NCBI GenBank assembly: GCA_903824785.1
Contig: CAIJYD010000052.1
Span: 1-64,000 of the forward strand
Origin: an uncultured Bacteroidota bacterium
GTDB lineage: Bacteria > Bacteroidota > Bacteroidia > Bacteroidales > VadinHA17
Reading direction: 5' to 3'
Length of the DNA stretch: 64,000 bases
The notes below the pieces were generated by a model. The model did no database searches and had not been told where the DNA came from. It saw only the letters and a list, made by a program, of their open reading frames with translations. Below, piece by piece: positions 1 through 61,079 of the stretch. The translations under genes and the position numbers were made by a program. The first letter of the stretch is position 1; each line of letters begins with the position of its first letter.

Positions 1-213
1 ATTCCTCCAAACCTCCGCAAGCTCCGATTTGTCGGAATTCGGGATGACGGGTTATTTTTTGGGACATTGGTACGGAAGCAATAGTTTCAGTTTTTTGTAT
101 ATCATTGTACAAAGGGGTTATGTTGTTGTAACGACTTTAAAATATAGCTGAATAAGTTATAAATAAGGAACAAAAAAAACCTTTTTTATGAATAATTCAG
201 GTTAAGTTTATCT

Positions 214-252
214 AAGGTTGTTTCACTTGTAATGGAAGGAACAACCTTTTTT
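214..252 (+). terminator. Rho-independent terminator-like hairpin
   Basis: A perfect 9-bp stem (AAGGTTGTT at 214-222, AACAACCTT at 240-248) with a 17-nt loop is followed by a run of T to position 252. It probably ends a plus-strand transcript that begins outside the window. It could also be an attenuator in the long metA leader, but I recognise no riboswitch core next to it. The rest of bases 1-375 is AT-rich non-coding DNA with no gene that I can see. Confidence 0.6.
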
Positions 253-375
253 AGATTTAAAATGAAGCTTTACATAGTTCTTTAACCATTTTTTAATAAT
301 ATTGAAAAATAAACGACCAAACCGGTATTTGAACACTATTCCGGTAAAAACAGATTAATTTTTAACCATTAAACT

Positions 376-1293
376 ATGCCATTAAATATTCCGGATAAAC
401 TGCCTGCCATTGAAGTTCTTCAGAAGGAGAATATCTTTGTTATGGATGAGTCGCGTGCCTCAAAGCAGGATATTCGTCCGCTGAGGATTGCCTTGCTGAA
501 CCTGATGCCCGTAAAGATGACTACCGAAACGGATTTAATCAGACTGCTTTCCAATTCTCCGTTACAGGTTGAACTGGATTTTATCAAACTGAGTTCACAC
601 ACTTCGAAGAACACTCCGATAGAACATATGCAGACTTTCTATAAAGACTTTAATCTTGTTATTCACAATAAATATGACGGCCTTATTATTACCGGTGCAC
701 CTGTTGAACAGATGCCATTCGAGGAGGTAATCTACTGGAAAGAGCTGACTGAGATCTTATCCTGGGCAAGAAGCAATGTTACATCTTCACTCTTTATATG
801 CTGGGGGGCGCAGGCTGCTCTTTATCACTACTATGGCATACCTAAATACCCGCTCGGTAAAAAAATGTTCGGGGTTTTTGAACATACTAAGAGTGAGTCA
901 CAAAATCAGATTCTGAGGGGCTTTGATGATGTTTTCTATGTGCCTCACAGTCGTCATACTGAAATAAGAAAAGAGGATATTGTTAAGGTGCCCGGCCTGA
1001 CCATTTTATCTGAATCGAAAGAATCGGGTATTTACATGGTTGCCTCGCTCAGCGGTCGTGAGCTATTTCTTACAGGTCATTCAGAGTATTCCCCTGAGAC
1101 ACTTGATATTGAGTATAAAAGAGACCTTGCAAAAAATCTTCCCATTGAAATACCAAAAAATTATTACAAGGACGATAATCCGGATAACCCTCCTCTGGTT
1201 CGCTGGCGTTCACAGGCAAATATGTTGTTTGTAAACTGGCTTAATTATTTTGTTTATCAGCAAACGCCTTACAATATTGATGCAATAAAGTAG
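376..1293 (+). CDS. metA: Homoserine O-acetyltransferase (MetA family)
   Basis: This enzyme activates homoserine by O-acylation, the first committed step of methionine synthesis. The 305-residue length is normal for the MetA/HTS family. The catalytic Cys142 lies in [10 protein letters not shown], and His235 and Glu237 lie in LTGHSEYSP, matching the Cys-His-Glu set of the family. The acyl-CoA specificity residue at position 111 is Glu ([11 protein letters not shown]). E. coli, which uses succinyl-CoA, has Gly there, and Glu is the residue associated with acetyl-CoA use, so the product is probably O-acetylhomoserine despite the frequent annotation as a succinyltransferase. It ends 2 bp before the convergent ppk1 stop. 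The start is the first ATG of the frame and aligns with the E. coli N-terminus. Confidence 0.95.
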
Positions 1294-1295
1294 GA

Positions 1296-3356
1296 TTATT
1301 TCTCTGATACTTTTTCATTAACCCTTTTGATGTAGTTATGAACTTCAATCTGCGACTGCACAGGTTTCTTTGAGTTTTTAACAAATTCATTTGAAAAAGT
1401 TGAATCGAATCTTCGTGCCTTTATATTATCGCTCCATTGTATTTCGAAAATCTCCTTCATCTCATTCTTAATACCTTTATCAAATACAGGGCAAGTGACT
1501 TCTATGCGGTGTTCGATGTTTCTTGTCATAAGGTCGGCTGAAGAGATGAAACACTCTTCATTTCCTCCGTTACAGAAGATCATGAACCTGGTATGTTCAA
1601 GAAACCGGTCAACAATTCCTATTGCCTTGATATTATCACTGATATCCGGTAAGCCGGGCACAAGTGAGATCATTCCCCTGATAATAAGCCTTATAGTAAC
1701 ACCTGCATTGCTCGCTTCATACAGGTGATTAATGATTTCACTGTCGGTAATGTTATTCAGTTTTATGTAGATGAAGGCTTTTTTTCCTGCTTTGGCATTT
1801 TTTATCTCATTTTCTATCAGTAGTGTAATCTTATTTCTAAGGGAAAATGGAGAGAGGATGAGGTGGTAGAAATTATCTTTCTTGTAATTTACATTGAAGA
1901 AGTTAAATGCCTTGAAGATCTCATTGGTGATTTTTTTATTTGTTGTTAAAAGAAGATGGTCAGTATAGATTTTCGCCGTATCCTCATTAAAGTTACCTGT
2001 GCCAATTGCCGCATAACGTTCTGAGACCTCATTCTTAACACGTGTTATCAGGCATAACTTGGAATGAACTTTAAGTCCCGGTACACCATAGATTACCTTG
2101 ACTCCCTCTTCCATCAGTTTATTACCCCAGAGAATGTTGGCCTCTTCATCAAAACGGGCCTGAAGTTCAACAACGGTTGTTACTTTTTTCCCGTTGCGCG
2201 CTGCATTCAGCAATGCATTTATTACGCTCGAGTTTCTGGCTAACCGGTATAATGTTATCTGGATGGAAGTGACATACGGATCGATAGATGCCTCTCTTAA
2301 CAGATCAATAAAATGGTCGAAAGGGTTGTACGGAAAGAAAAGCATGACATCCTTTTTCTTGATAGCTGTCAGAATACTCTTCCCCGGCAGGATATCCCTG
2401 TGAGGAATAGCGGCAAGTGGCTCGTAATAAAACTTTTTTCGCCCCGGATTAGGAAACTTCATGAAGTCTTTGAAATTGTGATATCTGTCAGCCGGAATTA
2501 CAACGTCATCAGGACCAAAATTGAGTTTTTTTGTGAGAACCTTCAATAGATCCTCAGGCATATTCCTGTCGTAAATAAACCGGACTGGTGTTCCCCATTT
2601 CCGTTGATGAAGACTGCGTGAAAGTTTATCTATATAGCTCTCAGAAATATCATCAACTATTTCAAGTTCAGCATCTTTCGTTAACTTGATAGTATATGCT
2701 GAAAATTCATCAAAATCAAAAATGAAGAAGATATCTTTCAGTCCGAACCTTATTATATCATCAATGAAAATAATATATTTATTATCGTCTTTTTCAGGAA
2801 GAACGATAAAACGTGGAAGTACATCAGTCGGGATTTCAAGAAGTGCGAACCGCTTTTTCTGGGTTTCCTTTTTGAAAAGATAAATTGCAAGATAGATTGC
2901 ATCATCAGTAAGGTTTGGCAATTCTGAATCTTTTTCGATAAGAAACGGCATGAGCCTTGTACGAACCTGGCTATGAAAATATTTCTGTACAAATTCAGTC
3001 TGTTCAGGATTCAGCTCTTTTTCATTAATAATATGGATCTTATGCTTGCCAAGCTCCTGAATCAGTCCGGAGTAAATCTTCTCAAACCGGGCATTCTGCG
3101 ACAGCACTATTTCATGAATGCTTTTAAGAGTGGCTTTGGGGCTGTATCCGAGAATAATCTTTGATCTGGCTCCGAATTGTGAAAGCCTTCTTAAGGTTGC
3201 CACTCTTACCCTGAAGTATTCATCGAGATTATTTGAATAGATACCAAGAAACTTGAACCGTTCAATTAGTGGTACTTCTTTGTTATCGGCCTCCTGCAAA
3301 ACACGTTCATTGAACGACAACCAACTAATCTCTTTTGGAATGTAGCTCTTGCTCAT
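1296..3356 (-). CDS. ppk1: Polyphosphate kinase 1
   Basis: This enzyme reversibly transfers the ATP gamma-phosphate onto inorganic polyphosphate. The 686-residue chain has the usual PPK1 order: N domain, head domain and two phospholipase-D-like catalytic domains. His431 in LKVHSKLCLITR corresponds to the phosphorylated histidine (E. coli His435) and His588 in DRFLEHTRFMIF to the second catalytic histidine (E. coli His592). At the position of E. coli His454 (in YAHIGTGN) this protein has Ala450 (YAAIGTGNFNE). It is the last gene of a minus-strand pfk-sixA-ppk1 operon, starting only 5 bp after sixA ends. Identification is secure; the effect of Ala450 is not known from sequence alone. Confidence 0.97.
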   Translation of the reverse strand: MSKSYIPKEISWLSFNERVLQEADNKEVPLIERFKFLGIYSNNLDEYFRVRVATLRRLSQFGARSKIILGYSPKATLKSIHEIVLSQNARFEKIYSGLIQELGKHKIHIINEKELNPEQTEFVQKYFHSQVRTRLMPFLIEKDSELPNLTDDAIYLAIYLFKKETQKKRFALLEIPTDVLPRFIVLPEKDDNKYIIFIDDIIRFGLKDIFFIFDFDEFSAYTIKLTKDAELEIVDDISESYIDKLSRSLHQRKWGTPVRFIYDRNMPEDLLKVLTKKLNFGPDDVVIPADRYHNFKDFMKFPNPGRKKFYYEPLAAIPHRDILPGKSILTAIKKKDVMLFFPYNPFDHFIDLLREASIDPYVTSIQITLYRLARNSSVINALLNAARNGKKVTTVVELQARFDEEANILWGNKLMEEGVKVIYGVPGLKVHSKLCLITRVKNEVSERYAAIGTGNFNEDTAKIYTDHLLLTTNKKITNEIFKAFNFFNVNYKKDNFYHLILSPFSLRNKITLLIENEIKNAKAGKKAFIYIKLNNITDSEIINHLYEASNAGVTIRLIIRGMISLVPGLPDISDNIKAIGIVDRFLEHTRFMIFCNGGNEECFISSADLMTRNIEHRIEVTCPVFDKGIKNEMKEIFEIQWSDNIKARRFDSTFSNEFVKNSKKPVQSQIEVHNYIKRVNEKVSEK

Positions 3357-3361
3357 AATAG

Positions 3362-3850
3362 TTATTCAGGTTTAAGAAAATATTCAATTTTACCTGTGTT
3401 CTGATCTATTTCCGACCAGCTTTTTATTTTGAATGAGATGCAGATGATACCGCATTTTGGCATAAAATCGCATCCTTCTTTACTCAGGCTATCCACCAGT
3501 TCTGTAAATGAAGGGTTATGCCCGAAGATAGTAATCATGTCGGTCTTGTCGCTTACCTGAGAAAGAATTTCATTCAGCTGCCGGAAATTCATTTTATGAT
3601 AAATGTTGCTTACCATTCTTATATCCTCGGCTTTTACTCCAAATTCCCCGGCAAAAATCAGCGATGTTTCGAGAGCTCTGAATGCCGGGCTGGTTATCAT
3701 TACTCCGGAAATTTCCTCCTCTTCTTTAAGCTTGCGCGCCATCAGTTTGGATATGGCTTTTCCTTTCAGGGTTAACGATCTTTCGAAATCTGATATTTCA
3801 GGTGAAGGGTCTTCAGCTCGTCCGTGACGTATAAATATTATTTTTTTCAT
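3362..3850 (-). CDS. sixA: SixA-type histidine phosphatase
   Basis: This is a small (162-residue) member of the histidine phosphatase superfamily. The RHGRAEDP motif at residues 8-15 holds the nucleophilic His9, and the second histidine lies in TIFGHNPSFTEL. SixA proteins dephosphorylate phosphohistidine, for example on phosphotransfer domains or the nitrogen PTS. The gene sits 49 bp downstream of the phosphofructokinase gene and 5 bp upstream of ppk1 on the same strand. That placement makes a role in phosphate or polyphosphate metabolism plausible, but this is inference. Related small phosphoglycerate-mutase-like phosphatases with other substrates cannot be excluded. Confidence 0.85.
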   Translation of the reverse strand: MKKIIFIRHGRAEDPSPEISDFERSLTLKGKAISKLMARKLKEEEEISGVMITSPAFRALETSLIFAGEFGVKAEDIRMVSNIYHKMNFRQLNEILSQVSDKTDMITIFGHNPSFTELVDSLSKEGCDFMPKCGIICISFKIKSWSEIDQNTGKIEYFLKPE

Positions 3851-3899
3851 TCTTTTCTTATTAATAACTGACGGGTGGATAATGATTGTAAATTGTAGT

Positions 3900-4940
3900 T
3901 CAGATGCCGAAACTTGTTCCCATATTTTGTGCCTGTATTACAAGTGGGTCATTTGGCTCAACAAGTTTCAGCTTTCCTGAAACTTCACCAAGCGACACAG
4001 ATACAATCCTGTTGTCTTTCAATGCTACCATTTTGCCAAAGTCACGCTCAGCTATCATATCAGCTGCAGCAGTACCATACCTTGTTGCAAGAACCCGGTC
4101 CATGGGAGAGGGGGTGCCTCCTCTTTGAATATATCCTAGGACAGTCTCCCTGGTTTCCAGACCTGTCATCTCATTTATTCTTTTGCTTATATACTGTGCG
4201 GCGGATCTGTCTTTTGCAGGGTTTTTGATTCCTTCTGCAAGAACAACTATCGAATACGGTTTATTTTCATTTACACGGTGAAGAAGGTACTCTGCAATTT
4301 TCTCTTCATTATATTCTATCTCAGGAATAAGAATAACATCACCTCCGCCGGCAATTCCGGAATACAGAGCAATCCACCCTGCATTATGGCCCATTAGTTC
4401 AATAATCATTATGCGTTTGTGGGAATTGGCAGTAGAGTGCAGCCGGTCGATAGCTTCAGTTGCTATATTTACTGCCGAATCGAATCCGAATGTAAGGTCG
4501 GTCCCCCAGACATCATTATCAATTGTTTTGGGAATACCAACAACATTAAGCCCCTCCTGCGACAGAAGGTTGGCTGTTTTGAGGGTGCCGTTTCCGCCGA
4601 TACAAACAAGGCAGTCGAGGCCCATCTGTTCATAGTGTTCTTTAATCAGAACGGGTTTGCTTATCTCATTTTTGCCCTTCCCCATGCCTTTGAAAGGTTT
4701 TTCCCTCGAAGTGCCAAGAATTGTCCCTCCAAGTGTAAGTATCCCTGAAAGATCATGTTCAGTAAGTTCCCTGTATTCCTTTGTAATCAGTCCGGTAAAA
4801 CCATCGCTTATTCCGACAAGTCTCATCCCGTATTTTACGATTGCAGTTTTACCTACACCACGAATGGCTGCATTTATTCCGGGACAATCGCCTCCGGCTG
4901 TCAGAATCCCAATCTTCTGGCCCCTTACTATTTTACCCAT
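3900..4940 (-). CDS. pfkA: 6-phosphofructokinase (group III-like, probably ATP-dependent)
   Basis: This glycolytic kinase phosphorylates fructose 6-phosphate. The nucleotide loop is LTAGGDCPGINAAIRG (14-29) and the catalytic aspartate is in PKTIDND (137-143). Two positions predict the phosphoryl donor. The residue equivalent to E. coli Gly104 is Gly118 (ATP-like; PPi enzymes carry Asp), whereas the Gly124 equivalent is Lys138 (as in PPi enzymes). This mixed Gly/Lys state is known from group III PFKs, which are usually ATP-dependent. The residue before Gly118 is Asn117 instead of the common Asp. It is the first gene of the pfk-sixA-ppk1 minus-strand operon and has a -7 promoter box about 30 bp upstream. 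Length (346 residues) is normal for the group. Confidence 0.93.
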   Translation of the reverse strand: MGKIVRGQKIGILTAGGDCPGINAAIRGVGKTAIVKYGMRLVGISDGFTGLITKEYRELTEHDLSGILTLGGTILGTSREKPFKGMGKGKNEISKPVLIKEHYEQMGLDCLVCIGGNGTLKTANLLSQEGLNVVGIPKTIDNDVWGTDLTFGFDSAVNIATEAIDRLHSTANSHKRIMIIELMGHNAGWIALYSGIAGGGDVILIPEIEYNEEKIAEYLLHRVNENKPYSIVVLAEGIKNPAKDRSAAQYISKRINEMTGLETRETVLGYIQRGGTPSPMDRVLATRYGTAAADMIAERDFGKMVALKDNRIVSVSLGEVSGKLKLVEPNDPLVIQAQNMGTSFGI

Positions 4941-4969
4941 TTTTTTATTTTTTTACTCTTTATTGTCAG

Positions 4970-4977
4970 CAAATTTA
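4970..4977 (-). promoter_or_regulatory. Bacteroidetes -7 box upstream of pfkA
   Basis: Read on the minus strand, the bases are TAAATTTG, an exact match to the TAnnTTTG consensus, 30 bp upstream of the pfkA start. No clear -33 element is seen. It would drive pfkA, sixA and ppk1 together. Confidence 0.5.
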
Positions 4978-5063
4978 GCTTTTTCTTTCAGGTTTCGTGC
5001 TGATTGTGCTGATAACAGCATATATAATAGGCTATCAGTATGAATATCTTTTACTTTTTTGTT

Positions 5064-5071
5064 TAACTTTA
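5064..5071 (+). promoter_or_regulatory. Possible -7 box upstream of the CHAD gene
   Basis: TAACTTTA matches TAnnTTTG at all but the last base and lies 32 bp before the chosen ATG at 5104. It is divergent from the pfkA promoter about 90 bp away. The match is imperfect and unsupported by a -33 box. Confidence 0.3.
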
Positions 5072-5103
5072 TAAAATTCATATATCTGTTCAGGAACTTA
5101 AAA

Positions 5104-5985
5104 ATGAAACTTGACGTTGTAAAATTGAAGGAGATAAAACCTGCCCTTACAGGATATGTCAGTGAGTCTCAGGCCTTGCTCAAACTATCGCCCATCCCCG
5201 GAGAGGAAGCAGTTCATGATATCCGTGTTCTGATGAAGAAATCCAGAGCGGTCCTCAAACTGGCTGCCACACAGCTTGATCAGGATTCCTATGAGAGGGA
5301 TATCCGTGCTTTCAGGGAAGTGGGCCGGCTATTGTGTTCCTGGCGCGAATCATCCGTTCACAGAAAAGTTCTTAAGGAGTTAAGAAAAGAAAATCCGGCT
5401 CTTTTTTTGAAGCTTCAGGAAAATGAAAAGCTTACAGATCTTATGAAAAAAGAGCTCCATACGGTTGAGTCTTCTGAAGAGTTAAGTGCCGGATTGGAGC
5501 AGATAACAGATCTTTTAAATAAAGCCGGATACCGGATCCGATTTCAATCGATGGATAGGATCGACCCGCATATTCTGTTAAAAGAGCTTGAGCTTTCTTA
5601 CACCCGTGTATCAGAGAAATATCTGACTTGCAGGAACAAGCCAAAGGCCTGCAATATGCACGAATTCAGAAAGCTGACAAAAGATTTTCTCTATCAGCTC
5701 TGTTTTTTCAGACCGCTGAACCCTTCTGCAGTTAAAACTCTTGAAAAAAAGCTTGAAAATCTGACTCAGGATCTTGGAAGGTTCAATGATTTGTCGCAAC
5801 TGATAAGAGCCCTCGGCTATAAATATTCTGAAGGAACAAACCTTCCGGCATTGGATGAACTCATTGTTAAAATTCGTGAAAAACAGGACCGGCATCTTGC
5901 TAAAGTCTGGCCGGTTGCTTATAAGGTTTTTTGTCCGGGCCAACAGCTGGTAAATATGCTTGGATTTAAATTACTTGTTATCTGA
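5104..5985 (+). CDS. CHAD domain protein (polyphosphate-binding)
   Basis: CHAD domains are helical bundles with conserved basic residues that bind inorganic polyphosphate. The signature appears twice, as expected for the internal repeat: VHDIRVLMKKSRAVLKL near the N-terminus and MHEFRKLTKDFLYQL near residue 200, each with the conserved His and following Arg/Lys. I start it at MKLDVVKL (5104); the frame stays open upstream, but the extra 15 residues are AT-rich and overlap the likely promoter. The gene is divergent from pfk-sixA-ppk1, which supports a polyphosphate role. No CYTH/triphosphatase domain is attached, so this is a stand-alone CHAD protein of about 293 residues. Confidence 0.88.
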   Translation: MKLDVVKLKEIKPALTGYVSESQALLKLSPIPGEEAVHDIRVLMKKSRAVLKLAATQLDQDSYERDIRAFREVGRLLCSWRESSVHRKVLKELRKENPALFLKLQENEKLTDLMKKELHTVESSEELSAGLEQITDLLNKAGYRIRFQSMDRIDPHILLKELELSYTRVSEKYLTCRNKPKACNMHEFRKLTKDFLYQLCFFRPLNPSAVKTLEKKLENLTQDLGRFNDLSQLIRALGYKYSEGTNLPALDELIVKIREKQDRHLAKVWPVAYKVFCPGQQLVNMLGFKLLVI

Positions 5986-6203: not shown

Positions 6204-8441
6204 ATGGCTAGCAGGAGAGATTTTATTAAAATTTCGGCAATAGGAGCAGGTGTTCTGGCAGTCGGAGCAGGGGCATTTAAAGTTATTAAAGTTCTTTCTT
6301 CATCCGAAGAGATAAAAAAACTGGTTGTTGATCTGAAGCGAACACCTACTTATTGTGAGGTCTGCTTCTGGAAATGTGCAGGATGGGTTTATAAGAATTC
6401 GGAAGGAAAAATCTGGAAGATAACAGGGAATGATGAAGATCAGCATTGTAACGGCCGCTTCTGTCCCCGTGGTACCGGAGGGGTTGGAATGTATTACGAT
6501 GAAGATCGTCTTAAGAGTCCGTTAATCAGGGTTGAAGAACGGGGGAAGCAGGTTTTCCGTGAAGCCACATGGGATGAAGCTTTTGAGCTTATTGCAACCA
6601 AAATGAAGGATATTTCATCAAAATATGGTCCTGAAAGCATGGCTCTTTTTACTCATGGTTCAGGTTCGGGTTATTTTACTACTTTATTAAAAGCATACGG
6701 CTCAGGAAATATTGCTGAACCATCGTATGCGCAGTGTCGCGGGCCTCGCGATGAAGCATTTTTCGCCACTTTCGGTGAAGAGGCTTATTCCCCTGAGATA
6801 ACTGATATCCGCGATACCAGATGTCTGGTTCTTATAGGATCGCATATCGGTGAGAACATGCATAACGGACAGGTTCAGGAGATGTCGGACGCAATCGACA
6901 AAGGTGCAGTAATAATAACTGTCGATCCAAGGTTTTCTACTGCTGCAGGTAAGGCCAGATACTGGCTCCCTATAAAACCGGCAACGGATATGGCACTGCT
7001 TTTAGCCTGGATGCATGAGATAATTTATAATGAGTATTACGATAAAAAATATGTTGAAAAATACTGCTCAGGATTTGAACAGCTAAAAGCTCATGTAAAG
7101 GATTTTACTCCGGAGTGGGCTTACGGGATCACTACTATCAAACCTGATCAGATAAGGAAGACAGCTAAGGAGATGGCCGATGCTTCTCCTGCAGTGATTG
7201 TACATCCCGGACGCCACGTAACCTGGTATGGAGATGATACTCAGAGAATAAGAGCAGTAGCAATACTCAATGCACTACTTGGTTCCTGGGGGAGGAGAGG
7301 CGGATTTTACAGACCTGCAAAATTTGCCCTTGCCTCATTTCCCATTCCTGCTTTCAAAGCACCTGCACGGACATGGCAGGATATCTTCCCGGGCAAATAT
7401 CCTATTGCCAGCTCTCCTGTGTCAAATGCACTTATTGATGCTTCCGTTGCAGAAAACAATCCGGTATATCCTGTAAAAGGGTGGTTTGTTAACGGAACAA
7501 ATCTGATATTTACTATTCCCAATCAGGCCAATACACTTAAAGCAATACAAAATCTTGACCTGCTGGTGGCCATCGACACTATGCCAATGGAGATAACAGG
7601 TTGGGCTGATGTGGTGCTTCCTGAATGTACATACCTCGAAAGATATGATATCCTCAGAGTCAGTCCACACCGAAAACCTGCCATTGCATTACGGATGCCT
7701 GCTGCAGAACCCATGAATAATACAAGATCTGCTTACTGGATTGCGCGTGAGCTTTCAAAAAAACTGGGACTATCCGGTTATTTCCCTTTCGAAAAGCAGG
7801 AAGAGCTGCTTGACTGGCAATTGCAAAAAGCCGGATCATCGCTCGAAGAGATGCAGCGGATTGGTGTTAAAACTTTTGAAAGGGATGCTGATGATCTCTA
7901 TTTTGCAGAAGATGAGAATGTTGAATTTTCTACCGATTCCGGTAAGATTGAGCTCTACTCCGCATTTTTTGAAGGTGCAGGTTTTGATCCGCTTCCAAAA
8001 TATGTGGCACATGAGGAGCCTGCAGAAGGTTTCTACAGACTTATTTACGGACGGGCCCCGATGCATACTTTCAGCCGTACTTCCAATAACCCGAACCTTA
8101 CCGATCTCATGGATGAGAATTCTGTCTGGGTAAATCCACTTGTTGCCAAAGAGTGGGGTTTGAAATCGGACCAGTATATCTGGCTTAAGAATCAGGATGG
8201 TATTATTACTGATTTCTCTGTTAAAGTGCGGGTTACAGAACGGATCCGATGGGATTCGGTCTATATAATACATGGTTTTGGTCATGCTCAGAAACAGATG
8301 AAACGCTGTTTTGGAAGAGGTGTCAGCGATACGCAACTGATAACAAATGTGCTTGTTGATCCACTTATGGGAGGAACCGGAATGAGATCGAATTTTGTAA
8401 CATTTGTAACTGAAAAAGCAGAGCAGGAGGTTGTATCATGA
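6204..8441 (+). CDS. Molybdopterin oxidoreductase catalytic subunit, polysulfide/thiosulfate reductase type (PsrA/PhsA)
   Basis: This is a 745-residue Mo-bisMGD enzyme of the DMSO reductase family. A Tat signal (SRRDFIK at 3-9 plus a hydrophobic stretch) directs the folded protein across the inner membrane. The N-terminal 4Fe-4S site has the pattern CEVCFWKC followed by FCPRG. A likely Mo-ligand cysteine is in PSYAQCRGPRDEAF. The C-terminal third is the molydopterin dinucleotide-binding domain. The start of the FeS subunit overlaps its stop (ATGA), and an NrfD-type anchor follows, which is the PsrABC/PhsABC layout. The substrate (polysulfide, thiosulfate, tetrathionate, or even arsenate/selenate) is not fixed by sequence. 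The sulfur transporter genes directly downstream favour a sulfur compound. Confidence 0.9.
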   Translation: MASRRDFIKISAIGAGVLAVGAGAFKVIKVLSSSEEIKKLVVDLKRTPTYCEVCFWKCAGWVYKNSEGKIWKITGNDEDQHCNGRFCPRGTGGVGMYYDEDRLKSPLIRVEERGKQVFREATWDEAFELIATKMKDISSKYGPESMALFTHGSGSGYFTTLLKAYGSGNIAEPSYAQCRGPRDEAFFATFGEEAYSPEITDIRDTRCLVLIGSHIGENMHNGQVQEMSDAIDKGAVIITVDPRFSTAAGKARYWLPIKPATDMALLLAWMHEIIYNEYYDKKYVEKYCSGFEQLKAHVKDFTPEWAYGITTIKPDQIRKTAKEMADASPAVIVHPGRHVTWYGDDTQRIRAVAILNALLGSWGRRGGFYRPAKFALASFPIPAFKAPARTWQDIFPGKYPIASSPVSNALIDASVAENNPVYPVKGWFVNGTNLIFTIPNQANTLKAIQNLDLLVAIDTMPMEITGWADVVLPECTYLERYDILRVSPHRKPAIALRMPAAEPMNNTRSAYWIARELSKKLGLSGYFPFEKQEELLDWQLQKAGSSLEEMQRIGVKTFERDADDLYFAEDENVEFSTDSGKIELYSAFFEGAGFDPLPKYVAHEEPAEGFYRLIYGRAPMHTFSRTSNNPNLTDLMDENSVWVNPLVAKEWGLKSDQYIWLKNQDGIITDFSVKVRVTERIRWDSVYIIHGFGHAQKQMKRCFGRGVSDTQLITNVLVDPLMGGTGMRSNFVTFVTEKAEQEVVS

Positions 8442-8971
8442 GATATGCAATGGCAGTTGATACCCGGAAATGCGTTGGTTGCAGCGATTGTGTTGTTGCC
8501 TGTCAGACCGAAAATAATGTACCTATCGGCTTTTGCCGCGACTGGGTTGTTGAGGTGATGGATGGCACTTATCCCCAGCTTGAAATTGAGATCAGGTCGG
8601 AAAGGTGCAATCATTGCGTTAATGCTCCATGTGTCCGGTGCTGCCCAACCGGCGCAAGTCATATTATTGATGGCGGAATTATTCTGGTTGAACACTCCGA
8701 CTGTATTGGTTGTGGAGCCTGTATGGCTTCCTGTCCTTATGATGCGCGTTATCCCCATCCCGATGGATATGTTGATAAATGTACATTCTGTGTTCACAGG
8801 ATTAAAAACGGGTTGTCACCTGCATGCGTTGCGGTTTGCCCGACAAAATGTCTCTATTTTGGCGACCTTGATGATCCAAACAGCGATGTCTCAACTGTGC
8901 TTAAAAAGAGAAAATTCAAGACTCTTATTCCCGAAGCAGGTACTGCCCCTCAGCTATATTTTCTAATTTAG
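8438..8971 (+). CDS. 4Fe-4S ferredoxin-type electron transfer subunit (PsrB/PhsB-like)
   Basis: This 177-residue protein relays electrons between the membrane quinone subunit and the molybdoenzyme. Four cysteine groups for four 4Fe-4S clusters can be read: CVGCSDCVVAC near residue 12, CNHCVNAPCVRCCP near 64, CIGCGACMASCP near 88, and CTFC with a later ACVAVCPTKC near 115-135. There is no signal peptide, as expected for a subunit carried out with its Tat-exported partner. It overlaps the catalytic gene by 4 bp and lies 20 bp before the anchor gene, so the three genes form one operon. Confidence 0.93.
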   Translation: MRYAMAVDTRKCVGCSDCVVACQTENNVPIGFCRDWVVEVMDGTYPQLEIEIRSERCNHCVNAPCVRCCPTGASHIIDGGIILVEHSDCIGCGACMASCPYDARYPHPDGYVDKCTFCVHRIKNGLSPACVAVCPTKCLYFGDLDDPNSDVSTVLKKRKFKTLIPEAGTAPQLYFLI

Positions 8972-8991: not shown

Positions 8992-9933
8992 ATGAAAGAA
9001 GAAATTATTGTAAGTGGAAGGATGAATCAACTCATTGATCCACATTTACATATCTGGCACTGGCAGATCTCTCTTTATCTTTTTCTGGGCGGAATGGCAG
9101 CAGGGATCCTGGCAATAGCTGCCCTATATTTCATCAGAGGCAGAGAAAAAGATTACAGAACAGCAGTCCGCATTACTCCATTTCTGGCACCAATACTCCT
9201 TATCCTTGGATTAATTGCACTATTCATTGATCTTCGCCATAAGCTTTTTTTCTGGCAGCTTTATACAAACATAAAACTTCAGTCACCAATGTCATGGGGT
9301 GCCTGGACACTTCTGGTTATAACACCTGTCTCATTTATCTGGTGCGCTCTGCATATAAAAGAGATTTTTCCGAAATGGGACTGGAAGTTTCAATTTCTTT
9401 ATGATCTGGAAACATTCCTGAACAGATTTAAAAAAGTACTCGCCTGGATTATGCTGATCTATGCAATCATCCTTGGGATTTATACCGGTATTTTGCTTTC
9501 AGCCTTTAATGCTCGTCCGCTGTGGAATACATCAATTCTCGGACCTCTGTTTCTTGCTTCAGGCTTGTCAGCAGGTGCTGCTGCAACTCTTTTATTATCA
9601 AAAGACAAAGAGGAGCGGAAACAGTTTGCCAGGATTGACCTTGTTTTGATCGGGGTGGAATTATTCCTTATCATTCATATGTTTATGGGATTTCTTGCCA
9701 GTACTCAGGTGCAGATTGAAGCAGCAAATATGTTCCTTGGAGGGCCATATACCATGTCGTTCTGGATTTTCGTTGTGATCCTCGGGATGCTGATACCTGC
9801 TCTGCTTGAGATAATGGAACTGGGTAAATTTCATATTCCGGTAATAGTACCTGCAGGCCTTGTAATCTTCGGAAGCCTTATGCTCCGGTTCATCATTGTC
9901 TATGCAGGGCAGGTAAGCAGATGGTTATATTAG
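8992..9933 (+). CDS. NrfD/PsrC-type membrane anchor subunit
   Basis: This integral membrane subunit of 313 residues has about eight to nine predicted helices, matching the NrfD/PsrC family that exchanges electrons with menaquinone. Characteristic features are the N-terminal amphipathic stretch DPHLHIWHWQISLYLFLGG leading into the first helix, and a late RFIIVYAGQVSR segment. No haem-binding cytochrome domain is visible. It completes the catalytic/FeS/anchor trio begun at 6204. Direction of electron flow (quinol oxidation with sulfur reduction, or the reverse) cannot be decided from sequence. Confidence 0.9.
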   Translation: MKEEIIVSGRMNQLIDPHLHIWHWQISLYLFLGGMAAGILAIAALYFIRGREKDYRTAVRITPFLAPILLILGLIALFIDLRHKLFFWQLYTNIKLQSPMSWGAWTLLVITPVSFIWCALHIKEIFPKWDWKFQFLYDLETFLNRFKKVLAWIMLIYAIILGIYTGILLSAFNARPLWNTSILGPLFLASGLSAGAAATLLLSKDKEERKQFARIDLVLIGVELFLIIHMFMGFLASTQVQIEAANMFLGGPYTMSFWIFVVILGMLIPALLEIMELGKFHIPVIVPAGLVIFGSLMLRFIIVYAGQVSRWLY

Positions 9934-10007: not shown

Positions 10008-10541
10008 ATGACTAAAACGAAGGAAGTAAAACAAAAAAAGTACCTCAACCCATATGTAGGAGGGGTATTGCTTGGTATCGTTCTTCTGGCTGCGAATTTT
10101 GTTTCAGGCCGGGGACTTGGCGCCAGCGGTGCCATAAAAAGTACAGTTGTTACTGCAGTCACAGCTATTGTTCCATCGTCAACAGAGAGCTCCGGATTTG
10201 TAAAAGAATTCAGTGAATCGCATAAAGGCAACCCGATGAAAACCTGGCTGGTATTTGAGATGATGGGAGTTCTGGTTGGGGGTTTTCTTTCCGGAGCGTT
10301 TGCCGGTCGTTTGAAGTTTAAGGTTGAACATTCACCTCAGATCACGTCACGCAAAAGATTGCTTCTTGCCCTCGGAGGGGGAGTCCTTTTTGGCTTCGGT
10401 TCACAACTCGGACGAGGCTGTACCAGCGGCTCTGCTCTCAGCGGAATGGCAGTTCTTTCTCTGGGTGGATTTATTACAATGATGGCAATATTCGGAACCG
10501 CATTTGCACTGGCATATCTCTTCAGAAAAAACTGGATCTAG
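10008..10541 (+). CDS. YeeE/YedE family sulfur transporter, N-terminal-half type
   Basis: This is a half-size (177-residue) YeeE/YedE protein with about four to five transmembrane segments. The family includes TsuA, which imports thiosulfate through a relay of membrane cysteines. Here the characteristic cysteine is in the SQLGRGCTSGSALSGMA motif, and the N-terminus carries FVSGRGLGASGAIKS. Full-length TsuA combines two such halves in one chain; in this genome the second half is the next gene. It begins 74 bp after the NrfD-like gene on the same strand, so it is probably co-transcribed with it. A paralogue is at 61080-61589. Confidence 0.88.
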   Translation: MTKTKEVKQKKYLNPYVGGVLLGIVLLAANFVSGRGLGASGAIKSTVVTAVTAIVPSSTESSGFVKEFSESHKGNPMKTWLVFEMMGVLVGGFLSGAFAGRLKFKVEHSPQITSRKRLLLALGGGVLFGFGSQLGRGCTSGSALSGMAVLSLGGFITMMAIFGTAFALAYLFRKNWI

Positions 10542-10637: not shown

Positions 10638-11228
10638 ATGGGACCATTAGCAATCAACGAAATAATATCGGAAAACACCAACCTTTTTCTGGCTTTTATA
10701 ATAGGAATAGGTTTTGGCTTTGTTCTGGAACAGAGCGGTTTTTCTTCAAGCAGGAAGCTTGCAGGCGTTTTTTACGGTTATGATACCGTTGTTCTGAAAG
10801 TATTCTTTACTGCAGCAATAACAGGTATGCTCGGACTTCTCTTTTTCAGTCTCTTTGGCTGGATAGACCTGAATCTGGTTTATGTTAATCCTACTTATCT
10901 GACATCCGCAATTGTTGGCGGCATTATTATGGGCGCCGGATTTATTATGGGCGGCTATTGCCCTGGCACAAGTTTCTGCGGTGCCTCAATAGGCAAAATT
11001 GATGCAATCGTCTTTATTGGCGGATTGTTTATAGGAGTATTTATTTTTGGTATCGGTTATGACCTCTGGGATGGAATGTATCTGGCCAGTAATCTTGGCT
11101 CCCCAAAAATCAGTACCACGCTTGGTATGTCCGACGGGATATTTGCATTTTTACTCATTCTTGCCGCTTTGGCAATGTTCTGGGTAGCTGAATGGGCTGA
11201 GAAAAAATTCCCGAGAGAAGAATATTAA
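10638..11228 (+). CDS. YeeE/YedE family sulfur transporter, C-terminal-half type
   Basis: This second half-transporter (196 residues, about five helices) carries the motifs GFGFVLEQSGFSSSRKLAG near the N-terminus and GGYCPGTSFCGASIGK in the middle, where TsuA-type proteins have their functional cysteines. The two cysteines here are in YCPGTSFC. It presumably assembles with the preceding 177-residue half to form a complete channel. The 96-bp spacer to that gene holds nothing recognisable. The rhodanese-fold gene follows 39 bp downstream. Its paralogue is 60412-61014, which has the same motifs, so the split is ancestral in this organism and not a recent frameshift. Confidence 0.88.
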   Translation: MGPLAINEIISENTNLFLAFIIGIGFGFVLEQSGFSSSRKLAGVFYGYDTVVLKVFFTAAITGMLGLLFFSLFGWIDLNLVYVNPTYLTSAIVGGIIMGAGFIMGGYCPGTSFCGASIGKIDAIVFIGGLFIGVFIFGIGYDLWDGMYLASNLGSPKISTTLGMSDGIFAFLLILAALAMFWVAEWAEKKFPREEY

Positions 11229-11267: not shown

Positions 11268-11891
11268 ATGAAACCACGTAACTTATTAGCATTGTTCATA
11301 ATCCCGATGGGCTTAATTATTGCAGCTGTTCCCCAGAATAAGACTAAACCTTACAAACTTACAGCTGAAGAGCTATTGGGTGAAGTTAACACCCGTACTC
11401 AGTATGTTACTCCGGATGCTGTTGCAGACATGATAATTAAAAAGGATCCATCTCTTCGTCTGATTGATGTCAGAAGTCAGGATGAGTTCGAAAAATTCAG
11501 TCTGCCCGGTGCTATTAATATTCCGGTCACTGATCTTCTTTCTGATCAGTACACCGACATAATCAATCAGGATATTAAAATGAATATCTTTTATTCCAAT
11601 GGAACACTGACCTCAAATGAGGCGTGGATGATAACTCGGCAACTGGGTTTTTCTAACAATTTTGTGCTTGAAGGCGGTCTGAACTATTGGTTTGATGCAA
11701 TCCTTAATCCTCAGAAGCCTGCTTCCACCAGCCCTGATGAGGAGTTTGCCAAATACGACTTTCGTAAAAGTGCAGGAGGTGCTCTTGGCGGAGGCGGTGC
11801 AATACAAACAACCCAGAACCTTGGTGCTTCATCTGCAAAACCGATGCTTAAACCGGGAGGGAAGAAAAAGAAAGCTTCAGGCGGCTGCTAA
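11268..11891 (+). CDS. Exported rhodanese-fold protein with C-terminal Gly-Gly-Cys tail
   Basis: This 207-residue protein has an N-terminal hydrophobic signal or anchor (residues 5-21) and a single rhodanese-like domain (about 50-145; LRLIDVRSQDEFEKFSLPGA, later LEGGLNYWFD). The rhodanese active-site loop, normally C-x4-R/S, reads FYSNGTLTSNEAW, so the persulfide cysteine is missing. The only cysteine in the whole chain is the final residue (SGGC), at the end of a flexible Gly/Ala/Lys-rich tail. It follows two YeeE half-transporters by 39 bp and has a paralogue at 59788-60399 with the same properties. I infer a periplasmic sulfur carrier or delivery protein for the transporter. It is not a classical rhodanese. 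Confidence 0.8.
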   Translation: MKPRNLLALFIIPMGLIIAAVPQNKTKPYKLTAEELLGEVNTRTQYVTPDAVADMIIKKDPSLRLIDVRSQDEFEKFSLPGAINIPVTDLLSDQYTDIINQDIKMNIFYSNGTLTSNEAWMITRQLGFSNNFVLEGGLNYWFDAILNPQKPASTSPDEEFAKYDFRKSAGGALGGGGAIQTTQNLGASSAKPMLKPGGKKKKASGGC

Positions 11892-14730: not shown

Positions 14731-16101
14731 ATGAAAATATTTGAGTCATTGAAAATAGGAGCAATCCGTTCTGTCAAAGCCTGGAAGGGAGTTTTAATAA
14801 TGTATTCACTGACACTTTTTCTTATCGCTTTGATAGCCCTTCCGGTGAAAACAGGAATTAAAAGCGTACTTGGGAGCAGTATGGTTACAGAATTGCTTTC
14901 CAAGGGTATAAGTCTTGATGTTATTTCTGATTTCGGAACTAATCTTAATACAATAATTTCCTCTTTATCTTTCGGATTATTTCTGATTTTATTACTTGGA
15001 GGTTTGATGAATGTTTTTCTGGCTGGAGGGCTCTTTAGTATTCTTAAACAATCAGAGAAAAAACCTTCGGCAGCACTGTTTTTTGAAGGTGGAGCCTCAA
15101 ATTTCCTCTCCTTCCTGATAATAACTGTAGTTAGTTCGCTGATGATTCTGTTTATTGGTTTTATAATTATTGGGGTGCCGGCAATGATAGCAGGCAGCTC
15201 GTCGCAATCTGAAGGGGCAGGATTCAGAACTGCCCGTCTTTTTGCAATGGTCCTGGCGTTAATACTTCCTGTTTTTCTGCTCGTAGCCGATTATGCCCGC
15301 GCCTGGCAGGTAACAAGGGAGAGAAAGAAGGCTTTTAAGGCATTAGGTTTCGGATTCAGTCAGACTTTCCGAACCTTCCTGTCATCCTACCCTGTAATGA
15401 TTATACTCTTCATTATTCAGGTTCTGTTCGGATGGATGGTTTTAAATAAGCTGCTCGGATCATATCCTGTTACCGGCGGGGGAGTATTCCTGATGTTCCT
15501 CATTTCACAGATACTTTTCTTTGTAAAAGTACTACTCAGGGGATGGAGATACGGAAGCGTTACTTCACTGATGGAGATGAATCCTGAAAAACCTTCAGAT
15601 AATTCTAAAGTTATAGTTACTGAAAAATCACTTTATCAGTTTTCTGCAAGAACTCTTCAGGGTATTGAAACATCGATGGAGATCTGCCGTGGGAAGGTAG
15701 TTCTGGTGGTTAACACAGCAAGCAAATGTGGATTTACACCACAGTATGAAGGGCTTGAAAAACTTTACCAGACATATAAAGAGAGAGGATTGGTTATTCT
15801 TGGATTTCCCTGCAATCAGTTTGCAAATCAGGAACCTGGCACTGAAGCAGAGATTGCTGAAGGATGCCTGATAAATTATGGTGTTTCATTTCCAATGTTC
15901 TCAAAAGTTGAGGTTAATGGCAATAATGCAGATCCCATTTTTAAGTATCTAAAAAGCAGGCTTCATGGTTTTACAGGGAAAAGAATCAAATGGAATTTCA
16001 CCAAATTTCTTATTGATGCAAACGGGATTCCTGTTAAAAGATTTTCACCGGCAACAAAACCTGAAAACCTGGTAAAGGATATAGAGAAGTTATTGAGATG
16101 A
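14731..16101 (+). CDS. Membrane protein fused to a glutathione peroxidase-like domain
   Basis: One open frame of 456 residues joins two unrelated parts. Residues 1-275 form a polytopic membrane region with about six hydrophobic segments and no family that I recognise. Residues 295-456 are a complete thiol peroxidase of the glutathione peroxidase family: peroxidatic Cys333 in ASKCGFTPQ, FPCNQFANQEPG at 359-370, Trp421-Asn422 in KRIKWNFTKF, and a likely resolving Cys379, which suggests thioredoxin as reductant. GPx domains of this type normally stand alone at about 160 residues. An internal ATG at residue 281 or 283, preceded by GGAG, could give a separate soluble peroxidase. The active-site part would lie at one membrane face; which one is uncertain. 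Confidence 0.85.
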   Translation: MKIFESLKIGAIRSVKAWKGVLIMYSLTLFLIALIALPVKTGIKSVLGSSMVTELLSKGISLDVISDFGTNLNTIISSLSFGLFLILLLGGLMNVFLAGGLFSILKQSEKKPSAALFFEGGASNFLSFLIITVVSSLMILFIGFIIIGVPAMIAGSSSQSEGAGFRTARLFAMVLALILPVFLLVADYARAWQVTRERKKAFKALGFGFSQTFRTFLSSYPVMIILFIIQVLFGWMVLNKLLGSYPVTGGGVFLMFLISQILFFVKVLLRGWRYGSVTSLMEMNPEKPSDNSKVIVTEKSLYQFSARTLQGIETSMEICRGKVVLVVNTASKCGFTPQYEGLEKLYQTYKERGLVILGFPCNQFANQEPGTEAEIAEGCLINYGVSFPMFSKVEVNGNNADPIFKYLKSRLHGFTGKRIKWNFTKFLIDANGIPVKRFSPATKPENLVKDIEKLLR

Positions 16102-58247: not shown

Positions 58248-59294
58248 ATGAATAAACAAAACATTCCGGTATTCTTTATTAATCTTCTTTTCCTCCTTTT
58301 GATTGCCGGATGCACAGGGAATAAATCAGAAAAGAAGCAGGAGCAGGCAGCAGAACCAGTGGCTGAAGCTAAAACACCGGTCGTTGTCGGAAATGAGACT
58401 TCCTTACTGCTGAAAGATCTCGCAGATAATGGCGATTATGTTAACAGTCAGTCTTTCCCATCTCTTATTAAATCATCAATTGTTAATGAAAGTCTCGGTA
58501 AAAATATTCTTGTCATTGATCTCAGAACAGCTAAGCAATTTTCAGAGGGTCATATAAGAAGTGCAGTAAGTAAGAAGTTTGAGGAGTTGCCAGTCTATTT
58601 TGAAACCGGGATAAAACCATTCGAGCTTGACAAGATTATTCTTGTTTGTGAAGATGGGCAGGTTTCAAGTTACACCACTTGCCTGCTGCGACTTATGGGT
58701 TATGGTAATGTCTATTCAATGAGATGGGGAATGAGTGCATGGAATAATAAATATGCCCAGGCCGGATGGTTAAGCGGGATCTCCGGAAAATATGAAGGAA
58801 ACCTTGAAACAGGTGCTAACGAAAGACCATCATCCAAAGGGATGGCTGAACTTAATACCGGAATGAAAACCGGAGAAGAGATTGGGGCTGCAAGATTCAG
58901 TAAATTATTTCAGGAGGGTACAGGAAATATCCTGATTACAGCCGATGAAGTCTTCAGCGATCCACGTAAATATTATATTGTTAATCTTGAACGGAAAGAT
59001 AAATATGAAGATGGTCATATACCTGGTGCTATAAGATATAAACCGGAAGCTACTCTTGGATTTATTGATGAAATGGCCTCTGTTCCAACTGATAAGACGG
59101 TAGTTGTGTATTGTGGAACCGGACATAATTCCGGATTTGCAACAGCCTATCTGCGTCTGTTTGGTTATGATGCCCGTACATTGCGATATGGAAATAACGG
59201 CTTTATGCACGACAAGATGCTAAAACAAAAAACAGCATTATCGTGGCTGCCATTTTCTGCCGCAGATGTTAATGATTTTGTAGTTGTAAAATAA
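58248..59294 (+). CDS. Tandem rhodanese lipoprotein
   Basis: This 348-residue lipoprotein (lipobox LLIAGC) has two rhodanese domains. The first (about 80-185) has VIDLRTAKQFSEGHI and a loop VCEDGQVSSYTTC; the second (about 235-330) has IVNLERKDKYEDGHIPGAI and VYCGTGHNSGFATA. Both keep a cysteine at the active-site position, in contrast to the two single-domain proteins at 11268 and 59788. It therefore may bind sulfur as a persulfide and transfer it, at the outer or inner membrane. It is convergent with the second YeeE module, with 15 bp between the stops. Donor and acceptor are unknown. Confidence 0.88.
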   Translation: MNKQNIPVFFINLLFLLLIAGCTGNKSEKKQEQAAEPVAEAKTPVVVGNETSLLLKDLADNGDYVNSQSFPSLIKSSIVNESLGKNILVIDLRTAKQFSEGHIRSAVSKKFEELPVYFETGIKPFELDKIILVCEDGQVSSYTTCLLRLMGYGNVYSMRWGMSAWNNKYAQAGWLSGISGKYEGNLETGANERPSSKGMAELNTGMKTGEEIGAARFSKLFQEGTGNILITADEVFSDPRKYYIVNLERKDKYEDGHIPGAIRYKPEATLGFIDEMASVPTDKTVVVYCGTGHNSGFATAYLRLFGYDARTLRYGNNGFMHDKMLKQKTALSWLPFSAADVNDFVVVK

Positions 59295-59309
59295 TCCTTT
59301 TATATTTCA

Positions 59310-59777
59310 TCATAATTCCGGTCTGACTAATGTGTCGGGCCGGAATTTGTGTTTACCGGTCTCATTATCGGGGAAGCCGGTTAGGATAAAAATGTTTTTC
59401 AATCCCATCTGGCTCAGAACCATCCAGATTCTTGCCGATACAGCAGGATCCTCTGAAAACAGGAGCACAGCTCCATCGTGTTTCCTGATAATTTCAATAT
59501 TCCTTTTATCTAAAATCTCTCCTTCAGGAAGATAAAGGAATTCCGCACCCTGATCTTTAATAATATCCGCTTTGCCATTCAGGCAGACAATAAGTTTTTT
59601 TCCTGAAACAGTGTCTCTCTTGTCAAGTGCAATAATATTTGACCCCGAGAGGGAAGGCCCGGCCCATTTTTTCGCATCATTTTTAAAATAGCCGGTACCA
59701 AACGACCTGAAAAGAACCAGGATCAGAATTGGAATTACTACTGCAAGTACTGCTTTGTATCTCTTTATCAGGTTCAT
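59310..59777 (-). CDS. Membrane-anchored degenerate rhodanese-like protein
   Basis: This 155-residue protein has an N-terminal transmembrane segment (AVLAVVIPILILVLFRSFG) and a domain with the rhodanese pattern: NIIALDKRD at the start and GAVLLFSEDPAVSARIWMVL in place of the active loop, with no cysteine there. The only cysteine is in LIVCLNG. It is the last gene of the minus-strand module YeeE-YeeE-rhodanese-fold, 10 bp after the preceding stop. I start it at MNLIKRYKA (59777); the frame is open upstream but would overlap the previous gene. It could be a structural partner of that protein. Confidence 0.7.
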   Translation of the reverse strand: MNLIKRYKAVLAVVIPILILVLFRSFGTGYFKNDAKKWAGPSLSGSNIIALDKRDTVSGKKLIVCLNGKADIIKDQGAEFLYLPEGEILDKRNIEIIRKHDGAVLLFSEDPAVSARIWMVLSQMGLKNIFILTGFPDNETGKHKFRPDTLVRPEL

Positions 59778-59787
59778 AATATCTTCT

Positions 59788-60399
59788 TTATTCGCATCCT
59801 CCGTCAAGTTTTTTGGAGGCGCTGTGTTTCGATTCAATAAATTTCAGTTTCAGACTGTCAGGAAGGCTGTTTAGTTCAGTAAACATCTTTCCGGCTCTGC
59901 TTCTGGTTTCAAAAAGGGCATTCTCCCTGGCAGAGATTTTTTCACCTGAGAACCGGCTGTTCATTACAGTATTGAACCACTCATTAAGACCACCTTTCAT
60001 GACATAAATATTCTTATAATTCATCCCTTTGGCAATTACCAGGGCATAGTTTGAATCGAAATCACCGTTGGAGTAGAGGATATTCATTGTATTTCCGCCT
60101 TTCAGAAAATTACCCTGATCGGCATTCAGAAATTCGCTGTAAGGAACATTAATTGAACCTGGAATATTAAAAGCCATATATTCCTTAGCCGGTCTGAGAT
60201 CAATTATCTGAACAGTAGTGTCTTCCGATGCAACAAACCTTGCAACCTGATCTGCACTTAAGTATGTTTTTCCATCAAGGATCTCAGGAAGCAATTTATG
60301 AGGTTTAACTGTAAACGATCGGTTAGCAGAGAAAGGCAGAAATGCCAGAATAAACCCAAGACTTAAAAGAATTATTGAAAATTTTTCTCTCATATTCAT
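59788..60399 (-). CDS. Exported rhodanese-fold protein with C-terminal Gly-Gly-Cys tail (paralogue)
   Basis: This 203-residue paralogue of the 11268 protein has an N-terminal signal or anchor (FSIILLSLGFILAFLPFSA) and a rhodanese fold (IIDLRPAKEYMAFNIPGSIN, KGGLNEWFNTV). The active loop reads LYSNGDFDSNYA, so the catalytic cysteine is again missing. The only cysteine in the chain is at residue 202, one before the end, in DGGCE. The tail before it is polar and basic (KHSASKKL). Sharing a single C-terminal Gly-Gly-Cys while the rest has diverged suggests selection on that cysteine. It lies 12 bp after the YeeE half and 10 bp before the membrane-anchored degenerate rhodanese. Confidence 0.8.
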   Translation of the reverse strand: MNMREKFSIILLSLGFILAFLPFSANRSFTVKPHKLLPEILDGKTYLSADQVARFVASEDTTVQIIDLRPAKEYMAFNIPGSINVPYSEFLNADQGNFLKGGNTMNILYSNGDFDSNYALVIAKGMNYKNIYVMKGGLNEWFNTVMNSRFSGEKISARENALFETRSRAGKMFTELNSLPDSLKLKFIESKHSASKKLDGGCE

Positions 60400-60411
60400 A
60401 TTTTCAGGTTA

Positions 60412-61014: not shown

Positions 61015-61079
61015 TTTTTTTCTGTTTGATTATTTTTAAACTGTAATGGTTCTATAGTGTTATTTTGTTCTGCTTCCTG

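Follow-up and report, generated by a model that had tools for sequence, protein, structure and literature searches.

The window analyzed here is a 64,000-nucleotide stretch of contig CAIJYD010000052.1 from an uncultured member of the Bacteroidota (Bacteroidales, VadinHA17; assembly GCA_903824785.1), and it contains, on the forward strand, three reductase genes followed by two YeeE-family genes and by a gene for a rhodanese-fold protein that we call RhdA. The reductase genes encode a PhsA/PsrA-like molybdopterin oxidoreductase (positions 6204 to 8441) with an N-terminal RRDFIK, which we take to be a Tat-type signal, a PsrB/PhsB-like 4Fe-4S subunit (8438 to 8971), and an NrfD/PsrC-like membrane subunit (8992 to 9933); Mo, 4Fe-4S, and NrfD subunits thus stand in a row, which is the Phs/Psr gene arrangement. 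The Mo subunit reached 474 bits, below the 694 bits of the PhsA equivalog, and may be of the Phs or the Psr type. YeeE half 1 (10008 to 10541) matches the C-terminal half of PF04143 (profile positions 169 to 309) and YeeE half 2 (10638 to 11228) its N-terminal half (4 to 157), so that the two halves stand in the reverse of their order in the one-chain profile. Their PF04143 scores are 75.8 and 49.7 bits, against a threshold of 27; on the NCBIfam thiosulfate transporter equivalog they score 37.7 and 19.4 bits against 400, each being a half-model gene. Elsewhere, the window encodes a protein with a long N-terminal region containing hydrophobic stretches and a C-terminal glutathione peroxidase domain (14731 to 16101; PF00255, residues 301 to 408), and a possible polyphosphate neighborhood (1296 to 5985) with ORFs that we take to be polyphosphate kinase-like and phosphohistidine phosphatase-like and a nearby CHAD-domain protein (PF05235).

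RhdA (11268 to 11891, forward strand) is a membrane-anchored protein of 207 residues with a GGC tail, and its rhodanese domain is supported by both profile and fold. The N-terminal anchor (residues 3 to 20; 11274 to 11327) is a helix in the structure model and is also supported by the charge means of the family given below, and the rhodanese loop (11589 to 11606) reads FYSNGT, with Ser110 instead of cysteine at the catalytic position. The C-terminal tail (residues 173 to 207; 11784 to 11888) is predicted to be flexible, with pLDDT below 50 at residues 176 to 191 and 198 to 207 of the model, and it closes with Gly-Gly-Cys (11880 to 11888), where Cys207 is both the last residue and the only cysteine of the chain. 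These features confirm the original prediction of an exported rhodanese fold with a cysteine-free loop and a lone cysteine in a terminal SGGC. SoxY ends in GGCGG, an ending absent from RhdA, and a Pfam scan (E up to 0.001) matched Rhodanese only and no SoxY family. A PHROGs search returned no match, and a search for PF14589 returned none in 7 genomes, nor any in the controls.

A second system lies in the same window at positions 58248 to 61589. Its reverse-strand genes encode YeeE half 1 (61080 to 61589), YeeE half 2 (60412 to 61014), a second RhdA copy with loop LYSNGDF and the ending KKLDGGCE (59788 to 60399), and Rhd3 (59310 to 59837), a small protein whose N-terminus includes a hydrophobic stretch and which has neither a cysteine tail nor a Pfam match; on the opposite, forward strand is dRhd (58248 to 59294), an untailed double rhodanese in which a lipobox-like IAGC lies close to the start and both loops contain cysteine (VCEDG and VYCGTG). 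Rhd3 occurs in several type-2 clusters. The genome of the window (97.8% complete) holds no further PF04143 match. Only two of its five rhodanese proteins are tailed, and the other three, presumably MnmH-like, TST-like, and dRhd proteins, have C-termini without cysteine, so we rejected the idea that such tails are a general rhodanese trait.

A contig scan of genomes found 67 loci, mostly in records of Bacteroidota or Neomarinimicrobiota, with single loci in records titled Chlorobiota, FCB group, and Alphaproteobacteria, and matches were also present in the genomes of 53 of 98 relatives. All 75 close-family sequences end in GGC or GGCS, with a tail that is mostly variable ahead of its Lys-rich end (left out of this set were L067, which is in two pieces, the second copy of L002, and two other ORFs of L066), and the terminal Gly-Gly-Cys supplies three of the 11 invariant columns of a 20-row alignment reaching down to 25% identity to RhdA. 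Profile A1, which was built from this alignment and contains the tail, matched 118 of 295 genomes of the order, 7 of 395 genomes spread evenly over the class, and 72 of 395 genomes of the phylum, with the window's genome included each time and the weakest phylum matches probably being ordinary rhodaneses. We took 20 loci of relatives, 98 around the order and class matches, and 40 around the phylum matches; repeated sequences were removed before counting, L252 and L253 were left out as 100-base placeholders, and the translation of L117 contains unknown residues.

Of 110 first-position proteins, encoded by the rhodanese-fold gene that comes next after YeeE half 2, 109 are complete once L106, whose ORF is open at a contig end, is left out; 105 of them end in GGC, 3 in another GC, and the single exception, L177, encodes KKAVQGGCS in a different frame. 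Fusions to YeeE half 2 carry GGC in 16 of 18 cases, the other two (L111 and L250) having stops inside the match. In the phylum set, with one short L313 match left out, the cysteine is last or next-to-last in 41 of 41 proteins and is the only exported cysteine in 33. The first and later sets share some genomes, and the overall count was made after clustering: 228 family proteins form 196 clusters at 90% identity, 193 of which have a last or next-to-last tail cysteine, while the 3 untailed clusters are broken frames. Every tailed cluster retains GC and 170 retain GGC, so that the first Gly is missing in 23. The catalytic position is Ser in 154 clusters, Ala in 21, Gly in 16, Cys in 3 (all tailed), and Thr in 2. 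The tail cysteine lies 32 to 58 residues beyond the domain end and is the only cysteine after the anchor in 146 clusters; its conservation, at 193 of 196, roughly equals that of the most constant positions in the domain, Asp68 and Arg70 of the model (0.99).

This degree of conservation, in close-family sequences and clusters alike, rules out chance or sequencing error as the origin of the ending. We also rejected the possibility that the tail is common on unrelated genes: in a screen of complete ORFs of at least 40 amino acids from 118 loci and the window, endings of GGC plus zero to two residues occurred outside the matched families only in five short frames of 40 to 87 amino acids. The ending does extend to other rhodanese-fold proteins of these operons. 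Of the 77 complete second-position proteins, 68 carry a cysteine within their final three residues and 9 lack a tail cysteine, and dRhd has a tail cysteine in 34 of 55 complete proteins and none in 21. The loop cysteine is kept in 11 of 77 second-position proteins and in 48 of 55 dRhd proteins, and both cysteines are present in 8 of 77 and 30 of 55, respectively.

Since a profile that includes the tail could bias the search, we restarted the survey from YeeE half 2, which matched 47 of 119 genomes of the order. It gave 57 entries: 50 split-type loci, a second piece belonging to G554, and six YeeE matches that are remote or in one piece and have no rhodanese neighbor. A tailed rhodanese-fold protein, fused or downstream, is present at 47 of the 50 loci, and the remaining three comprise one cut by a contig end and two of the broken frames already counted above; the same outcome was thus reached from YeeE, and search bias was rejected as the cause of the conservation. 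The expectation in the original prediction that the tail cysteine would persist beside split YeeE halves where the loop cysteine is missing therefore held, at 47 of 50 loci and in 193 of 196 clusters. Among these 50 loci, no intact YeeE-adjacent member lacks a C-terminal cysteine, a loop cysteine is retained in only the 3 of 196 clusters noted above, and an error at the 3' end of the gene is ruled out by the conservation.

We classified 171 tailed loci by their neighbors. Split YeeE occurs together with reductase genes at 115, YeeE occurs with no reductase gene in view at 43 (31 of them fused), YeeE is present but the upstream sequence is too short at 7, and no YeeE was seen at 6, namely four with too short an upstream sequence, L248, and L285. 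No PhsA of this kind was found in the 11 fused-type genomes searched (best match, 142.9 bits; the fused frame is split in one of them, G736), and 4 of 4 reductase-type genomes gave PhsA matches of at least 863 bits. The 43 YeeE-only loci and these 11 genomes reject a tail tied to the reductase only. A tail tied to YeeE only is rejected by G978, the genome of L285 (99% complete; a single genome), in which the reductase is present and PF04143 has no match. This genome keeps its reductase operon and has two tailed proteins that share identical last 16 residues. Thus, the presence of the tail is not bound to either the reductase or YeeE alone. The L248 stretch (1 to 4468), with no YeeE in view, encodes two rhodanese proteins ending in GGGCGG and SGGCGG, the latter with loop FYSNSN, placing a SoxY-like GGCGG ending on the rhodanese fold of a relative; it also encodes what we take to be a double rhodanese, a porin-like protein, and a two-domain sulfurtransferase. 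Beside two of five fully listed tailed operons are ORFs (L099, 4708 to 5499; L102, 4638 to 5456) that are presumably TatC-like and perhaps serve export of the Mo subunit.

In the fused form, which occurs in other lineages, YeeE half 2 is followed by a basic loop, a helix, the rhodanese domain, and the tail, which is thus kept. Such domain fusion supports a physical link between the rhodanese domain and the channel. Charges around the anchor predict that the rhodanese domain lies outside, clearly in the fused forms and less so in the separate ones: across 37 fused forms the mean net charge is +2.43 before and -0.22 after the anchor, with the charge before being greater in 33, equal in 4, and reversed in 0, and across 191 separate family members the means are +1.81 and +0.18, with the rule weaker (130 greater, 36 equal, and 25 reversed).

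In many operons the next genes encode another anchored protein of the rhodanese fold (RhdB) and dRhd, and nearly the same tail is often found on two or three of the different rhodanese-fold proteins that an operon encodes. Three proteins end in KKEVEGGCG at L205, in KKQVGGGCE at L221, and in KKKKQAAAGGCE at L099, and both proteins of L218 end in EGC; at L200 and L216, dRhd ends in EVCD and RhdA and RhdB in GGGCD, so that the residue after the cysteine matches without Gly-Gly. Measured over the six residues that precede GGC, mean tail identity inside an operon was 0.603 for RhdA and RhdB (n = 65; shuffled mean, 0.209), 0.609 for RhdA and dRhd (n = 29; shuffled, 0.224), and 0.532 for RhdB and dRhd (n = 26; shuffled, 0.181), and none of 5,000 shuffles reached the observed value in any of the three comparisons. 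Shuffling ignores kinship, and the 65 operon pairs include related genomes, so we also compared the bodies of the proteins. The body of RhdA has a mean identity of 28% to the RhdB of its operon and 56% to its nearest orthologue (below 85%), and it is closer to the orthologue in 65 of 65 cases; the tail of RhdA is closer to the operon mate in 42 of 65 cases and to the nearest orthologue in 10, with a tie in 13. Fused forms stand out among the poorly matched tails, with identity to the mate below 0.5 in 8 of 10 fused-type operons among the 60 of 65 pairs listed. Beyond the [G]GC end the tails are low-complexity sequences rich in Lys, Glu, or Gly, so the matching is partly one of composition. Two systems in one genome have different tails, as in the window (KKKKASGGC versus KKLDGGCE), G609 (L182 and L183), G071, and G519, and matching therefore belongs to the operon and not to the genome.

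Considering the fold, the anchor, the predicted disorder, the near-invariant tail cysteine, the operon and fusion partners, and the matching of tails, we think it probable that RhdA is a membrane-anchored periplasmic carrier whose tail cysteine acts as a swinging arm for sulfane sulfur. We infer from these features that the tail cysteine would carry sulfur, and likewise in which direction it would pass and where the arm would dock. The rhodanese fold, lacking its own catalytic cysteine, would act as a docking body, and the tail-tip cysteine would take up sulfane sulfur as a persulfide, polysulfide, or thiosulfonate. Exported rhodaneses that retain the loop cysteine, such as dRhd, would be likely loaders, and the PhsABC/PsrABC-like reductase and split YeeE channel of the same operon likely receivers, with the stretch of variable sequence, rich in Lys, Glu, or Gly, serving as a flexible spacer that may be tuned to the docking site of the operon. 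Given how often tails match among the different carriers of an operon, these arms probably share one or more operon-specific docking sites. With more doubt than confidence, we extend this to a modular system in which operon-specific cysteine-tipped tails might be interchangeable carrier arms among a catalytic lipoprotein rhodanese, a Phs/Psr-type reductase, and split YeeE, with the arm built into the channel in one branch and matched tails serving as a recognition code that separates parallel sulfur circuits. Two parts of the original prediction need qualification. That the tail stands in for the lost loop cysteine agrees with the near-universal absence of the latter, but the replacement is not strict, given the proteins that have both cysteines. 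Feeding of the adjacent YeeE cannot be the whole function of RhdA, since G978 keeps a reductase operon and two tailed proteins with no PF04143 match.

The matched tails, the conserved cysteine apart, could instead be gene-conversion copies between neighbors that say little about a common partner, an explanation that is compatible with a carrier. Tail codons are almost identical at L099 and L194, where conversion may have occurred, and identical tail residues share codons somewhat more often within operons (172/306) than do body residues (1062/2394) or tails across genomes (3426/7111). At the GGC residues, however, codon agreement (85/193) is no higher than in the body, so recent gene conversion is not a general cause; the general pattern is one of the same amino acids with drifted codons, and we regard copying as an unlikely account of the matching. 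Another possibility is that the terminal cysteines are assembly clasps, forming disulfides between the tails of RhdA, RhdB, and dRhd or between a tail and YeeE or the reductase and carrying no sulfur. Homotypic pairing would suit several proteins with matching tails per operon, and G978 has two tailed proteins without YeeE, but many loci, that of the window included, have a single tailed protein, and the conserved neighbors are sulfur genes, which together make clasps distinctly unlikely.

Identical endings on different proteins would also be expected of a sorting or anchoring signal, with the C-terminal cysteine processed or modified by a dedicated enzyme. These proteins already have a membrane anchor or, in 46 of 55 dRhd proteins, a lipobox-like start; the two systems of one genome differ in their tails, with matching per operon; and the only extra gene shared in the five fully listed loci is the TatC-like ORF, in just two of them. 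We therefore consider sorting very unlikely. It is still less probable that the cysteine binds a metal or that the element carried is selenium instead of sulfur. The YedE selenium model does match both YeeE halves (30.3 and 25.7 bits), for half 2 above the thiosulfate model (19.4 bits), and the genome encodes a TusA-domain protein beside a gene we take to be SelD-like and a presumably MnmH-like rhodanese; half 1, though, scores higher on the thiosulfate transporter model (37.7 versus 30.3 bits), the operon partner is PhsA-like at 474 bits, and the selenium-type genes sit on other contigs. Finally, Gly-Gly-Cys resembles a precursor ending from which cleavage would leave a Gly-Gly thiocarboxylate carrier of the ThiS/MoaD type; the QbsE precursor ends in GGC plus one residue, and in our family GC is nearly invariant, GGC is usual, and one residue may follow the cysteine. 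Loading of ThiS/MoaD-type carriers is ATP-dependent and cytoplasmic, yet the tail is predicted to lie outside, and the first Gly is missing from 23 of the 193 tailed clusters, so that we give a precursor ending hardly any credence. A periplasmic sulfur carrier remains the reading that we prefer.

Several known systems resemble this proposed carrier in part. Sud of Wolinella succinogenes, which is associated with polysulfide respiration, has weak sequence similarity to the RhdA family: structure 1qxn, which we take to be Sud (named sulfide dehydrogenase in the match table), matched profile A2 with an E value of 1.4e-4, as 18th of 19 chains listed and below other rhodaneses. The sulfur site of Sud is its rhodanese-loop cysteine, whereas RhdA has Ser at that position, carries its cysteine at the chain end, is anchored, and is coupled to YeeE. 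Sud has been described as a sulfurtransferase located in the periplasm and able to bind a polysulfide chain (PMC3397948). In SoxY, sulfur is described as being held on the cysteine of a swinging arm, which visits several enzymes (PMC5336275), and RhdA, as proposed, would be analogous, although it differs in its rhodanese fold, membrane anchor, and GGC end and has no SoxY Pfam match. YeeE-family channels are likewise paired with cysteine-bearing proteins: YeeE (TsuA) is reported to take up thiosulfate with a cysteine partner, YeeD, bound on the cytoplasmic side, and YeeE-YeeD also exists as a single chain (PMC11073785), and for SoxT a DsbA-like protein of the periplasm, bearing CXXC at its C-terminus, was considered as a sulfur-delivery helper (PMC11582611). 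In contrast to YeeD, RhdA is predicted to lie outside, has a rhodanese fold and a tail cysteine, and accompanies a channel that is split in two genes with their order swapped. 'Candidatus Thermonerobacter thiotrophicus' is reported to have a cluster of psrABC, a two-domain DUF395 transporter, and a rhodanese-related sulfurtransferase (PMC6338057), the same kinds of genes as in the operon of the window and perhaps the same family; the accessible part of that report mentions neither a lost cysteine nor a tail in the sulfurtransferase. Another Psr operon is described as encoding an exported rhodanese-type sulfurtransferase (PMC12142623). The gene cluster has thus already been reported, and we found no description of the tail in the literature searched, most subscription journals lying outside its reach.

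Sulfur import into the cytoplasm is described as poorly understood (PMC11582611), and RhdA is a widespread, genetically linked, and sometimes fused candidate partner of a YeeE-type channel, with a single residue, the last cysteine, as a target for mutation. Our findings suggest that the carrier site of a rhodanese fold can sit outside the classical loop, in which case it would be misleading to annotate these proteins either as sulfurtransferases or as dead sulfurtransferases. Tails that match by operon also offer a natural experiment on the choice of partners by periplasmic carriers.

A variant of the tail, GGLC plus one residue, occurs in 2 of the 47 tailed loci of the YeeE-first survey (G096 and G551), which adjoin CxxCH-rich ORFs. 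Diverged YeeE-rhodanese fusions that end in AGGLCG (L370, 2631 to 4373) and AGGLCS (L371, 2104 to 3853) are flanked by ORFs resembling multihaem cytochromes and represent another genetic setting for the tail.
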